Of a stretch of 64,000 nt of DNA, positions 55,519 to 63,025 are shown in pieces. The notes under the pieces are model-generated. The model did not search any database and had not been told where the DNA came from. It worked only from the letters and a program-made list of their open reading frames with translations. The position numbers and the translations under genes were made by a program. The stretch comes from Vittaforma corneae ATCC 50505. Its lineage: Eukaryota; Microsporidia; Nosematidae. Positions within the stretch are counted from its first letter, which is position 1, and every line of letters begins with the position of its first letter. The DNA lies in contig NW_006889851.1 in assembly GCF_000231115.1 (NCBI RefSeq), positions 1-64,000 of the forward strand. The letters are read 5' to 3'.

Positions 55519-56004
55519 CTATTCCTCTATGCTCTTTACAAGTCTATCAATATCTGTCCAGCTGCCTTCCACACATGCCTTGACTCTCTTTTTGTACTCT
55601 TCCAAACTTTCTTGAAAAAGCTTGGCAGCCTCTGGGTTGGCTGGTGATTTGGTGTTTGGATCGTTTAGCAGGCTTTGGATGCTCAGCAGAATTCCTTGCA
55701 CATCGTATGATGGCGACCATCTACTCTTAAGTATGTCAAGGCACAGATCTCCGTTTGGGTAAATGTTTGGGTGGAACATTTCAGATACGAATGTGACTTC
55801 TGGAGGGTGCTGGGGATATCCTTCGTCGAATGTAAGTACCAAAGAAAAAGTTCCATTTTCAAATGGTGTGTTGTCTGGTCCCAAAATGATTGCTGTCCAC
55901 GTCAGTAGATCTTCTTCTAGAGGCTGTGCGAATATTCCAGTACAGTTCACTTTCTGGATTTCATTAAAATCTTTTAGTAGTCGTCTCTTTGCTGGTGTTG
56001 ACAT
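55519..56004 (-). CDS. RAD6: Ubiquitin-conjugating enzyme RAD6/UBC2, copy 2
   Basis: Second copy of the E2 at 53232: 161 aa with the same catalytic Cys88 and start context. One amino-acid change (Thr at position 22) but several synonymous differences, so coding is under constraint in both copies or both are recent alleles. Confidence 0.95.
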   Translation of the reverse strand: MSTPAKRRLLKDFNEIQKVNCTGIFAQPLEEDLLTWTAIILGPDNTPFENGTFSLVLTFDEGYPQHPPEVTFVSEMFHPNIYPNGDLCLDILKSRWSPSYDVQGILLSIQSLLNDPNTKSPANPEAAKLFQESLEEYKKRVKACVEGSWTDIDRLVKSIEE

Positions 56005-56176: not shown

Positions 56177-56845
56177 TTATTTGATTTGTTTTGCATCCTG
56201 TAAGTTTAGAATGCTGTCTAAGATATTATAAATAAGTGGGTTGTTTTTTATATAAAATTTTGCCATTTCAGGTACTGTTTTATACTCATCAGCTAGCCAT
56301 ACTTCCATTTCTCTTTTAGATTCAAGATATAGAAGGAAAACATTTCTTGTGTACGATCTGACTTCTAGCTGTGCTGCTATAAAGCAGTTCAACAGCTCTT
56401 TCTTATGCTCAAACTCAAGAAATGAAAAGCGTGTCCTAAAATAGTCAGGATTGAAATAGTACTGTGGAAGCTTTAAGTGTAGCTCGTGGCCTAGAGATTC
56501 AAAAATAGACCACTCTGTCCTTAGTATTTCCTTTGCTGTGAATGCTCCATCTGTTACCACTGAGTATTCTAAAACCCGCTTTGTTTTTGACTCCTCTATC
56601 TTGGCCGCCAGAAAGAGACAGGATATTCCAATAAGCTGGTACTCCTTCAGCTCAAAGCCATTTTTTTCGGTATATTTGTCTATTATAAGCACTGCCGTGG
56701 TGTAGGTATAGATGGAATACCTGAAGTCTCTGCATACCTCATAAAGCCATCTGAGAAGTCTTTTGCGATGGGAAGATTTGTGTATTGTCAGCTTGATGCG
56801 CTTGGAGGAGATATTCGTAATATCCTGGAACACACTCTTTAGCAT
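56177..56845 (-). CDS. Cyclin-fold protein (B- or G1-type), complete copy
   Basis: 222-aa cyclin. The cyclin box shows RKRLLRWLYEVCRDFRYS, YTYTTAVLIIDKYTEKNGFE, and the hallmark QLIGISCLFLAAKIEE with the conserved Lys-Glu. The second half (LGHELHLKLPQYYFNPDYF) is the hinge into a shorter C-terminal cyclin fold. It would activate a CDK in the cell cycle. The protein is minimal, without a destruction box that I can see in its roughly 30-residue N-terminus, so G1-type is as likely as mitotic. AAAATTTACAG precedes the ATG. Its upstream neighbour at 56901 is divergent, 55 bp away. Confidence 0.85.
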   Translation of the reverse strand: MLKSVFQDITNISSKRIKLTIHKSSHRKRLLRWLYEVCRDFRYSIYTYTTAVLIIDKYTEKNGFELKEYQLIGISCLFLAAKIEESKTKRVLEYSVVTDGAFTAKEILRTEWSIFESLGHELHLKLPQYYFNPDYFRTRFSFLEFEHKKELLNCFIAAQLEVRSYTRNVFLLYLESKREMEVWLADEYKTVPEMAKFYIKNNPLIYNILDSILNLQDAKQIK

Positions 56846-57120: not shown

Positions 57121-57903
57121 TTAATCCTCAGCAAATCGTTCCTGCTCTTTCTCTTCTGACTCTTCATAGTTACGCTCGGCATAGTTAATTTCTTCGCCTG
57201 CTTCGTCATCATCTTCAAACATTTCTGGATTTTTAAGGAATAGATCACATCCTTTGACATTTCCTGATAGGGCTGCAACTCTCTTTGCATGCAACTCGTC
57301 CTCTCTATCCTTTTTAGCCTTCCACTCAGCAAACGTCTTTTCATTCACAGGTGTAAGACTGTTCTCGTCTATTGTTTGTCTCTGCAGCTCGATATATTCC
57401 TCAAGGGACACCTCTACTTCTTGGTTATTGGACAGCTCAATAAGTCTATGGATGTCCTGGCAGTTGGGAAGTGGACATTCCCAACTCTTAGAATATTCTC
57501 CGCCATTAATCGCATCTATCAAGAACTTGCATACTACTTTCTGTTTTGGATGTGGCGGCACATTCTGTTCCTTCTTTTCCTCCTTCTTTAAAAAATGCCC
57601 AAACTGGCACAGATCGCCCTTTTCGCATTTCCCATTAAGAAAGTTAATACACTGCACTGTCTTTGGGTCCACACCAACAGGAATCAGCTGCTTCACAACT
57701 TCAGACTTCCTGATGTTGTCTATCTCCTGCTTCTTTTTTCTTTCCAGCTCCATTTCCAGCTCAAACTTCTTGATCATAGACTGTATTTCCTTTTTCTTTG
57801 TTCTATTTTTCTCTCCAAATAACTGCTCTTCCAGCATTTTGATCATTTCTTTCGGTGTCTTTTGTTTTACTGGCTGCTTGGTACTTGTCTGCGACTTACT
57901 CAT
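57121..57903 (-). CDS. TMA46: TMA46 / ZC3H15 (DFRP1) CCCH zinc-finger protein
   Basis: Ribosome-associated partner that stabilises the DRG1/RBG1 GTPase. The 260-aa protein has a Lys-rich N-terminus (TPKEMIKMLEEQLFGEKNRT). The first CCCH finger is in VDPKTVQCINFLNGKCEKGD and CQFGH. KQKVVCKFLIDAINGGEYSK leads into a second finger (WECPLPNCQDIHRLIE). The DFRP domain follows with VSLEEYIELQRQ, then TFAEWKAKK. It ends in an acidic Glu/Asp tail. This order matches yeast TMA46 (345 aa), shortened. AAAATTTT lies upstream of the ATG. Fits the window's translation theme with LSO2 and eIF6. Confidence 0.9.
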   Translation of the reverse strand: MSKSQTSTKQPVKQKTPKEMIKMLEEQLFGEKNRTKKKEIQSMIKKFELEMELERKKKQEIDNIRKSEVVKQLIPVGVDPKTVQCINFLNGKCEKGDLCQFGHFLKKEEKKEQNVPPHPKQKVVCKFLIDAINGGEYSKSWECPLPNCQDIHRLIELSNNQEVEVSLEEYIELQRQTIDENSLTPVNEKTFAEWKAKKDREDELHAKRVAALSGNVKGCDLFLKNPEMFEDDDEAGEEINYAERNYEESEEKEQERFAED

Positions 57904-59073: not shown

Positions 59074-59410
59074 GTCGATCACGGGTTTGCTTTTGGAGTG
59101 AGCCCCTTAAAATAACTTACTAATGAAGTTTCGATAAAGCCGCTGAACTAGTGGGCACTGGGAATCATGCGCGCTTTTGCAACAGTATTTTTATTGTCAG
59201 AAGCGCACTGCACCTCAATATGCACTTTGTTTTGCATCTACTTTTAAATAATAGTAGTGAAGAAATTAGTAGATAAATTGATGGATGGCACAAATGTGGC
59301 ATTTTTAATATTGAGCGCCTTGGTTTAGGTGAGATTTATACAAAAACATATGGCAGATGCCCTTTTGCAAAACACTGATTTGTGATTTGCAATATGCAAC
59401 ATTTCATGCT
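59074..59410. other. Intergenic region upstream of the HSF-like gene
   Basis: 337 bp with no ORF or RNA gene recognised. An in-frame ATG at 59357 would add 18 Cys/Phe-rich residues to the next gene. Confidence 0.45.
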
Positions 59411-60169
59411 ATGCCTTATGGAAAAATAAAGCCATTCATCAAAAAGCTCTATGACATACTGGGAAGTGCTGAGTTTTCAGAGATAATCCAGTGGAATTCA
59501 AACGACTCCTTCATTATTCATGATCGTGAAAAGTTCTGTGAAGAGATCCTTAGAAAGTTTTTTAAAACTTCAAGCTTCGACAGCTTTACAAGACAGCTTA
59601 ATAAGTATGACTTCAGAAAGCAGAGAAACCAGGATATTTTCTGGAACAATGATTTTACTAAAAACAATTACGACAGGCTGAACAAGATAGTGGTTAAAGA
59701 GAGCTATCACACGCTGAGGCAGATTAGAGATAATGGACTGGGACTGTCTCTTTTTAATTGCAAGGTTGTTAAGATTCTGACCAAAATTGCTGATATGCTC
59801 GAAAATATAGCAAAAAACCAAAAGACAACAAAAAAAGTGCCAAAGATACTGATTTTCGAAGACTTTGATCCCTCAGAAATGGTTGAGATGCTTCAATGTA
59901 GAGGAGCCAAGGCTGATGTTGTATTCTTTTATAACGACTTCGAGGTGAAAATCAACAGCATCGAGTATGATTATCTTGTTATTGATTCAGAGCTATTTGA
60001 AATATTTAATAAAATTTCGAATGTGGACAGCTATAGGTCGAAGACAAAGGTCATTTGCACATCGAAGTTTTCTCCTGGAAAGTTTTCTTCAGACACTATG
60101 GGAAATTGTATTTACAAGCTGCTGAGAAAGCCATATGACGGATATCAGCTTTGTTCACTAATTAAATAA
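59411..60169 (+). CDS. HSF-type DNA-binding domain fused to receiver-like domain (SKN7-like)
   Basis: 252-aa putative transcription factor. Residues about 1-95 are an HSF-type winged helix: KIKPFIKKLYDILG, IIQWNSNDSFIIHDREKF, and the recognition-helix region FFKTSSFDSFTRQLNKYDF. A helical linker (about 110-140) follows. The C-terminal 105 residues look like a response-regulator receiver: ILIFEDF (acidic pair Glu150-Asp151), YDYLVIDSELF (Asp192 at the phospho-acceptor position), KVICTS (Thr217 at the switch) and LLRKPYDG (Lys240-Pro). This HSF-coil-receiver order is that of fungal SKN7/PRR1. The receiver is diverged, so phosphorylation is not assured. Start at 59411 or 59357. Confidence 0.75.
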   Translation: MPYGKIKPFIKKLYDILGSAEFSEIIQWNSNDSFIIHDREKFCEEILRKFFKTSSFDSFTRQLNKYDFRKQRNQDIFWNNDFTKNNYDRLNKIVVKESYHTLRQIRDNGLGLSLFNCKVVKILTKIADMLENIAKNQKTTKKVPKILIFEDFDPSEMVEMLQCRGAKADVVFFYNDFEVKINSIEYDYLVIDSELFEIFNKISNVDSYRSKTKVICTSKFSPGKFSSDTMGNCIYKLLRKPYDGYQLCSLIK

Positions 60170-60572: not shown

Positions 60573-61553
60573 ATGTTCATCATGTTTAATCCCTTAGAGC
60601 TGCTTCTCACGATGGCATGCGTATATGCTAACATGTACAACAACTGTGCTGGTTTGAACTACTCAGCAAACCAGATTGCTGATATGTCTAAAATGCTTTC
60701 ATCTGGACAGTATTGTACCAACACTACTCCATCCAACGAGATGGGGTTCTTACCTCCAACCAGTCCATCAGGGCCTGGATATTGTGCAAACCAAGGCGCA
60801 ACTCCATGTGCCACAGGTGGTGGATCTTCTTCAGGATACTATCCCCAAAATGGTAACACTACTAATATTCCAGGAATGACATCTTCTCAGGCCCAAGAAT
60901 GCAGCGTGGTTACTTCAGTAGAGTGTGGTCCAAAGCAGTCTGGTAACAACTCTTTAGTGCCTCAGAGATTCACACCCTCTCAGTCGTCAACTGATTACAG
61001 CAATCAAAGTTGCAATCAACAGAGCACTGGCGGCGGTGGGTTTATTCCAGGACTGTATCCAGGTGATGGATCAAGTGGCAACGGAGGAGCATGCTATTCA
61101 CAATCTTCAACAAGACCAGACCAATCCAACAGCCTTATTGGATACTCCCAGCCTTGCAGTTCCTATCAGAATGGATCTGGCAGTTTCGTTCCAGGAAACA
61201 GCCCCATTGGATACTCCCAGCCTTGCAGTTCCTATCAGAATGGATCTGGCAGTTTCGTTCCAGGAAACAATTCTATTGGATACTCCCAGCCTTGCAGTTC
61301 TTATCAGAATGGATCTGGCAGTTTCGTTCCAGGAAACAGCCCCATTGGATACTCTCAGCCTTCTGCTTGCAGTTCCTATCAAAATGGAGGAGGATTCTCT
61401 GGTTTGTTTGATTGCTCAAATCCTTCCTTTGGCAAAACCCCAATTAATACTGCATATATTGGAACGACCGAGCTTCCTGTCGTTCCAGGATTTACTATTA
61501 ACCCTTCGTCCTGCAGCTCAAGCAGTGCATGCTGTACACCTTCTGCTCAATAA
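60573..61553 (+). CDS. PTP1: Polar tube protein 1-like
   Basis: Main structural protein of the polar tube, the extruded tube that delivers the spore contents into a host cell. The 326-aa protein has a signal peptide (NPLELLLTMACVYA). The mature part is rich in Gly, Ser, Asn, Gln and Pro, with about 16 cysteines for disulphide cross-linking. The centre holds tandem 23-residue repeats (GYSQPCSSYQNGSGSFVPGN core), and the C-terminus is Cys-rich (SSACCTP). PTP1 proteins diverge strongly, so identity rests on composition, repeats, secretion and the conserved linkage to PTP2. Ser/Thr-rich regions are likely O-mannosylated. ATG at 60573 or 60582. Confidence 0.85.
   Translation: MFIMFNPLELLLTMACVYANMYNNCAGLNYSANQIADMSKMLSSGQYCTNTTPSNEMGFLPPTSPSGPGYCANQGATPCATGGGSSSGYYPQNGNTTNIPGMTSSQAQECSVVTSVECGPKQSGNNSLVPQRFTPSQSSTDYSNQSCNQQSTGGGGFIPGLYPGDGSSGNGGACYSQSSTRPDQSNSLIGYSQPCSSYQNGSGSFVPGNSPIGYSQPCSSYQNGSGSFVPGNNSIGYSQPCSSYQNGSGSFVPGNSPIGYSQPSACSSYQNGGGFSGLFDCSNPSFGKTPINTAYIGTTELPVVPGFTINPSSCSSSSACCTPSAQ
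61140..61404 (+). repeat. 69-bp tandem repeat in PTP1, 3 full and 1 degenerate unit
   Basis: Units start at 61140, 61209, 61278 and 61347 (each GGATACTCCCAGCC or one change). The first three are almost identical; the fourth has an inserted Ser-Ala-Cys and ends early in NGGGF. Each unit encodes 23 residues with one cysteine. Period divisible by three keeps the frame, so copy number can vary without loss. Confidence 0.95.
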
Positions 61554-62143: not shown

Positions 62144-63025
62144 ATGAACAGAGTAGTGTCAATGATATTTTCCTTACTTACACTCAGTAAAGCACTAACA
62201 ATTCAAGAATTGCCGGATAACCATCCTATGAATGCACGTATGATGGGTCCACAGAACAGTGAGGCTGGTGTGATGATTAACCATTTGCAGAATAAGGTGA
62301 TGAGTGATGCAATGTATGGTAATAAGGGCGATGACTGTGGTGCAAGAGATAACCGGCTATCGGAAGGTGTTTACATCCCGCAAGCAGATCCAGTGACTGA
62401 GCATCTAGAGAGAATTCAGAAGCAACAGCAATGCTTGGTAGCCAAAGCTAAGACACAGAAAGCAATTGAAGATACAATGAAGCGGGTTATTAAAGAAACT
62501 ACTAAGCAAGCTACTAATGACTTCCAGAAGAACCTAGAAAAGAAGAATTGCGTGAACAAACTCGATCGATCTAATCACGAATGCTTCGTGAAGGATGTTC
62601 TGAAAGATTTCTATACTGCTATTGTATGGAAGGTAGCTGTTCACGACAATGTTGCACAGTTGTGGTATCATGATAAACTGGTTATTATGATTATATTTGA
62701 AACGATTGATTATATTGTCAAACCTGAGGAGCAGGAATGTTTCACATTCTTCCCTACATCCAATGTTGCTGCAGAAGAGAATGCACTTGGACATGTTGTG
62801 AATGTAATTGGAAAGCCAGCCACGCCTAAGTCTGCCACTCAGGGCGAATGTAGGCCATGCACTGATTTCCTGAAAAAGACGGTCGAAGGAACAGCATCGA
62901 AGTGCACCAACAACTGTGATCCATCCAATATTCTATTTTCAGGTTCCAACTTTAAGACCAAGAAAAGAAATACTTCAACAGTGGCACCCAGTGAAGCAAG
63001 GAACAGAGGTGGTAAAGAGGATTGA
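62144..63025 (+). CDS. PTP2: Polar tube protein 2-like
   Basis: Second polar tube structural protein, basic and cross-linked to PTP1. The 293-aa product has a signal peptide (VVSMIFSLLTLSKA), a helical Lys/Gln-rich centre (QKQQQCLVAKAKTQKAIEDT) and nine cysteines. Several are in conserved-type pairs (GECRPCTDF, SKCTNNC). The C-terminus is basic then charged (TKKRNTS...RGGKED). Size and Lys/Cys composition match PTP2 of Encephalitozoon and other genera (about 275-300 aa). The adjacency with PTP1 on the same strand is conserved across microsporidia. Confidence 0.88.
   Translation: MNRVVSMIFSLLTLSKALTIQELPDNHPMNARMMGPQNSEAGVMINHLQNKVMSDAMYGNKGDDCGARDNRLSEGVYIPQADPVTEHLERIQKQQQCLVAKAKTQKAIEDTMKRVIKETTKQATNDFQKNLEKKNCVNKLDRSNHECFVKDVLKDFYTAIVWKVAVHDNVAQLWYHDKLVIMIIFETIDYIVKPEEQECFTFFPTSNVAAEENALGHVVNVIGKPATPKSATQGECRPCTDFLKKTVEGTASKCTNNCDPSNILFSGSNFKTKKRNTSTVAPSEARNRGGKED

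Follow-up and report, generated by a model that had tools for sequence, protein, structure and literature searches.

Most signalling pathways have been shed by microsporidia, and the locus described here raises the question of what a receiver domain, joined to a DNA-binding domain in the manner of the fungal stress regulator Skn7, does in such an organism. In the accessible parts of two papers, microsporidia are stated to lack histidine kinases (PMC4965123) and hybrid histidine kinases (PMC5285503), and the remark to this effect in the initial annotation of this DNA is found in print. Of the two microsporidian species covered by a 2015 survey, 50% are listed with HK and RR domains and neither with HPt (PMC4558063). 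A microsporidian Skn7 with a receiver has already been reported: a 2019 study describes Nosema ceranae NCER_101594 as SKN7-like with a receiver, gives an SKN7-like gene, an HMS2-like gene, or both for every examined microsporidian genome except one, and comments on the lack of Sln1 (PMC6531884). The accessible part of a further paper mentions an antisense lncRNA to a V. ceranae Skn7 homologue (PMC13359526). A literature search that combined Rozella with Skn7 found no paper.

Architecture and identity of the gene

The window, which is the whole analysed stretch of 64,000 nucleotides, lies on contig C18 of the Vittaforma corneae genome (2.9 Mb in 35 contigs). Near its end, the open reading frame at 59411-60169 on the forward strand (759 bp) translates into 252 aa. 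A longer alternative frame of 270 aa begins at 59357; the Met encoded at 59411 forms an invariant column in 8/8 sequences and is the exact start in three relatives. The features of the locus are the following:

59411..60169, + strand: gene very probably of the Skn7 type, 252 aa in a single open frame
59435..59692, + strand: HSF-type DNA-binding domain, residues 9-94 (Pfam PF00447, E 3e-20; among solved domains, the C. thermophilum Skn7 entry 5d5w matches best by sequence)
59744..59818, + strand: predicted coiled-coil helix, residues 112-136 (AlphaFold2 model and heptad check)
59840..60166, + strand: CheY-like receiver domain, residues 144-252 (by profile and predicted fold)
59858..59863, + strand: acidic pair E150-D151, aligned with CheY D12-D13 (E in 8/8; D in 6/8, N in 2/8)
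59984..59986, + strand: candidate phospho-acceptor D192 (8/8), with a shortened beta3-alpha3 loop directly after it
60059..60061, + strand: candidate switch residue T217 (8/8); in the hhalign alignment, the neighbouring S218 takes this position
60128..60133, + strand: K240-P241 (8/8), at the position of CheY K109-P110

The initial annotation had proposed the order of an SKN7-like HSF DNA-binding domain, a linker, and a receiver, and this order is borne out by the PF00447 match at one end and by profile and fold at the other. In the intervening helix, the heptad a/d positions are L, I, V, M, F or A in 7/8 (best of seven registers), and residues 97-118 and 136-140 have low pLDDT values in the AlphaFold2 model.

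Seven relatives from the protein database cover 98-100% of the window protein at 40-84% identity, and we take them as orthologues because the similarity extends over the full length. The relative from Glugoides intestinalis is named skn7 in its NCBI source. All conservation counts refer to the window protein and these seven relatives (n = 8); P0009, which matches the HSF domain only (26% of the query), was left out of the alignments. By these sequence comparisons, both end domains are constrained and the linker much less: the mean pairwise identity is 0.61 for the DNA-binding domain, 0.37 for the linker, and 0.45 for the receiver, and the invariant columns number 27/75, 5/61, and 19/109, respectively. 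A further protein search with the DNA-binding domain alone returned four proteins from 12 candidates, none of them new.

For the DNA-binding domain, fold and sequence give different rankings. In the comparison with solved structures by fold (Foldseek), HSF2 entries rank just above Skn7, and fold alone thus cannot tell Skn7 from HSF. In the comparison by sequence (phmmer), however, C. thermophilum Skn7 reaches 59.9 bits and any HSF at most 47.5 bits. The genome contains only one other HSF-domain match, a 224-aa frame on contig C3 (L002:1483-2157), which has no further Pfam domain at E<=0.001. The nearest solved sequence to this second protein is an HSF (61.6 bits), with Skn7 in 15th place of 18 (43.8 bits). 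The window gene could in principle encode a canonical heat shock factor that carries an unrelated alpha/beta domain at its C-terminus, as the top Foldseek rank of the HSF2 structures would allow, but the sequence of its DNA-binding domain is nearest to Skn7, its C-terminal domain is a receiver by both profile and fold, and it is the other HSF-domain gene of the genome that is nearer to HSFs. We regard this alternative as very improbable. The canonical HSF1 is an HSF-type factor without a receiver, and the window protein departs from that class in having a receiver. Skn7-type identity, by which the gene is a relative of the fungal stress regulator, is in our view very probable, and this relatedness is most likely an orthology, as judged from the sequences.

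Saccharomyces cerevisiae Skn7 has the same succession of an HSF-type domain, a coiled coil, and a receiver with a phospho-acceptor Asp. The window protein differs from it by its length of 252 aa, as compared to about 620 aa in yeast, by the lack of long linkers and of a C-terminal tail, and by a receiver that is below Pfam detection; also, no counterpart of Sln1 or Ypd1 was found in the genome. The likeness to Nosema (Vairimorpha) ceranae NCER_101594 extends, as far as the accessible text of that study goes, to the HSF-type domain closest to SKN7, the receiver, a genome without reported Sln1, and a second HSF-domain gene (PMC6531884). The second gene of Nosema ceranae is termed HMS2-like there, whereas for the second V. 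corneae gene the closest PDB sequences are those of HSFs, with no Hms2 entry among the matches listed.

The receiver domain and its pocket

With single sequences, the Pfam library is uninformative on the receiver. The window protein has no Response_reg match, whether searched whole (E<=1) or as the cut domain (E<=10), and it does not reach the curated cut-off of PF00072. One of the eight cut receiver domains matches Response_reg (E 0.006), and unrelated families score alike on the cut domains (BBH37 on one of the eight, 0.0015; DUF3873 on two of them, best 0.0081), which is why these matches carry no information.

The profile built from the eight sequences gave a clearer picture. In a search against the PDB (hmmsearch), ArlR took the top two places (E 0.0019 and 0.0021). 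Six of the nine matches at E<=10 were response regulators, the four besides ArlR at E 0.13-0.42. Comparison of the profile with seven E. coli receivers by hhalign resulted in a probability of 94.9 (E 4.6e-8). A single CheY sequence, though its pocket residues lined up individually with those of the profile, gave no significant match (E 0.13, as compared to 0.48 for CheZ as control).

The AlphaFold2 models have the alternating beta-alpha fold of receivers and resemble receivers in Foldseek and VIA-align. Among the 50 matches listed in one structure comparison, 49 could be recognised from their title or known identity as receivers or response regulators, and the remaining one was a USP11 entry; among the 50 listed in the other, one was CpaE2 and one had an unclear title (RD-BEF), and the others were response regulators on the same basis. 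The confidence of the models was middling, with mean pLDDT values of 75.1 and 72.6 and with 3/5 receiver-only models at 45 or below, and helix 4 is almost missing. The receiver-like domain that had been read from the letters is thereby matched by the structure prediction, and the C-terminal domain is confirmed as a CheY-like receiver at the level of sequence profile and predicted fold. Receivers of the bacterial OmpR family, for example ArlR and PmrA, share the fold and the pocket positions with it. The window receiver differs from them by an identity of only about 15-24%, by being about five residues shorter after the acceptor Asp, and by the lack of a bacterial output domain.

E150, D192, T217, K240, and P241 are identical in 8/8 sequences, whereas D151 is D in six of them, including the window protein, and N in two. 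The initial annotation had described the acidic pair, the acceptor Asp, the switch Thr, and the Lys-Pro as kept; this stands in all eight sequences for the five invariant residues, including Asp192 and Lys240, whose conservation in orthologues it had singled out, and in six of them for D151. With six named sites, which is the number in that residue list, the chance that at least five fall among the 19/109 invariant columns is 5e-4, and it is 2.4e-3 when only D/E/K/T/P columns (9/34 invariant) are counted. In the alignments, about five residues are absent after D192, corresponding to the short beta3-alpha3 loop, and a Pro and a Gly that are invariant in 7/7 E. coli receivers fall within this gap. 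Among the papers listed in the literature searches, none deals with how well the pocket is conserved in microsporidian Skn7; Fig. S2B of PMC6531884 may show the corresponding residues of NCER_101594.

A chance resemblance to receivers was also considered and is ruled out by the profile search against the PDB, the fold match, the hhalign result, and the pocket-residue odds.

Relay partners and the role of the receiver

HisKA, Hpt, and Response_reg profiles had no match at E<=10 in the genome (2.9 Mb, 35 contigs), in line with the two published statements on histidine kinases cited above. The HATPase_c profile had three matches, of which one is a topoisomerase II by its gyrase B and Toprim domains in Pfam and one a protein with a MutL_C domain. 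The third (L004) has HATPase domains alone in Pfam, including HATPase_c_3, and we take it to be MLH1-like by its resemblance. On these assignments, the last of them tentative, we reject a histidine kinase among the three. A scan for the HPt motif found 31 places, as compared to 21 with the reversed pattern as control; none of the stop-to-stop frames that contain the 31 exceeds 95 codons or is a plausible HPt frame.

The sensitivity of these searches differs between families. The protein-kinase profile recovered 27 stretches at E<=1e-10, showing that strongly conserved families are detected. PF00183 (HSP90), however, had no match at E<=0.01 in the whole genome, which is unexpected in a eukaryote. 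We consider a gap in the search or in the assembly more likely than a true loss; Hsp90 is present in Nosema ceranae according to the accessible text of PMC6531884. As PF00072 missed the window receiver and PF00183 missed Hsp90, there are gaps in either the search or the assembly, and the genome-wide absence of HisKA, Hpt, and Response_reg is a weakly powered negative.

The best explanation, to which we assign a probability of roughly 0.6, is a compact Skn7 with an orphan receiver outside a His-Asp relay. For the relay-independent working of the receiver taken by itself, we see slightly better than even odds. The Skn7 relative would act in the nucleus as a transcription factor, with its HSF-type domain bound to HSE-like DNA, and it may oligomerise through the short coiled coil. 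The histidine kinase, and probably HPt too, would have been lost, leaving the receiver orphaned. The receiver may then work through binding, either to partner proteins or within its own dimer. Accessible accounts of yeast Skn7 ascribe the Sln1-related osmotic role to D427, make the oxidative-stress role dependent on Ser/Thr phosphorylation, and report a D427-independent role. By analogy with that oxidative-stress role, the orphan receiver could possibly be tuned by Ser/Thr phosphorylation, and the D192/E150/K240/T217 cluster would be retained as a metal-binding or structural core and not as the acceptor of a His-Asp relay.

The strongest fact against an orphan receiver is the invariance of the five pocket residues in 8/8 sequences although the identity between receivers falls to 30% in the most divergent pair, as the loss of some of these residues would be expected in a module that serves binding alone. 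Atypical orphan receivers provide a comparison: RitR, FrzS, and HP1043 are similar to the window receiver by Z- or TM-scores, and they are atypical, are not known to be driven by a cognate kinase, and have lost key pocket residues. The window family differs from them in that it keeps five of the six pocket residues in all eight sequences. The 2015 survey, in which the accessible text has HK and RR domains in one of two microsporidian proteomes (PMC4558063), also counts against an orphan receiver.

Both points would suit a cryptic His-Asp relay, in which HPt and kinase are too divergent for Pfam and phosphate still reaches D192. As the family search missed the window receiver itself, a divergent HPt could have been missed likewise. 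However, the accessible parts of PMC4965123 and PMC5285503 deny microsporidia histidine kinases, and in the genome there is no HisKA or Hpt match at E<=10, no frame from the motif scan that would be plausible as an HPt, and an alternative assignment for each HATPase_c match, one of them tentative. The Asn in place of D151 in 2/8 sequences and the short beta3-alpha3 loop also speak against a functional relay, which we consider unlikely. Pocket conservation could also reflect phosphorylation of D192 that needs no histidine kinase, with a small phosphodonor or a kinase of an unusual type as the source, and the 27 protein-kinase stretches would offer candidates for the latter. To our knowledge, no Ser/Thr kinase phosphorylates a receiver Asp, and acetate kinase and phosphotransacetylase, as sources of the donor acetyl phosphate, are unmatched in the genome at E<=1; phosphorylation by such donors appears quite improbable. 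That D192 phosphorylation still switches the receiver, be it through a divergent relay or through a kinase not known for receiver Asp, is on the whole doubtful.

What selects for a phospho-acceptor site after kinase loss is thus a testable puzzle for the orphan receiver. Phosphorylation of D192 would mean that there is a hidden signalling pathway; without it, the protein would be a clear example of a two-component domain that has been put to new use for binding.

Genomic neighbourhood

The initial annotation had suggested that the gene could control the osmotic or germination programme, which is speculation, and the closeness of the Skn7 gene to polar tube genes is a matter of position only. 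Polar tube protein 2 (PTP2; 62144-63025, + strand; PF17022, E 1.7e-70) is encoded by the second of the long frames that follow downstream, and its gene marks the genome as microsporidian. The HSE scan found 37 GAANNTTC sites in the window, as compared to 31.3 in shuffles, with 19 of 100 shuffles reaching 37, and thus no enrichment; a mono-nucleotide shuffle had overstated the GAANNTTC excess. In the gaps checked, one site is upstream of the Skn7 gene and one between the Skn7 gene and the next gene; the remaining two gaps have none, and no site lies upstream of PTP2.

The frame at 60573-61553 (+ strand) encodes a 326-aa protein rich in Gly, Ser, Pro, and Cys that has no Pfam match and that we assume, from position and composition, to be perhaps a PTP1-like polar tube protein. 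Inside this gene there is a 69-bp tandem repeat of 3.4 copies (61128-61362), from which the overlapping long frames at 60573-61553 probably stem. Other neighbours are ordinary genes by Pfam, namely those for a ubiquitin-conjugating enzyme (55519-56004), a cyclin (56177-56845), and a Tma46/DFRP-type CCCH protein (57121-57903), all on the reverse strand.
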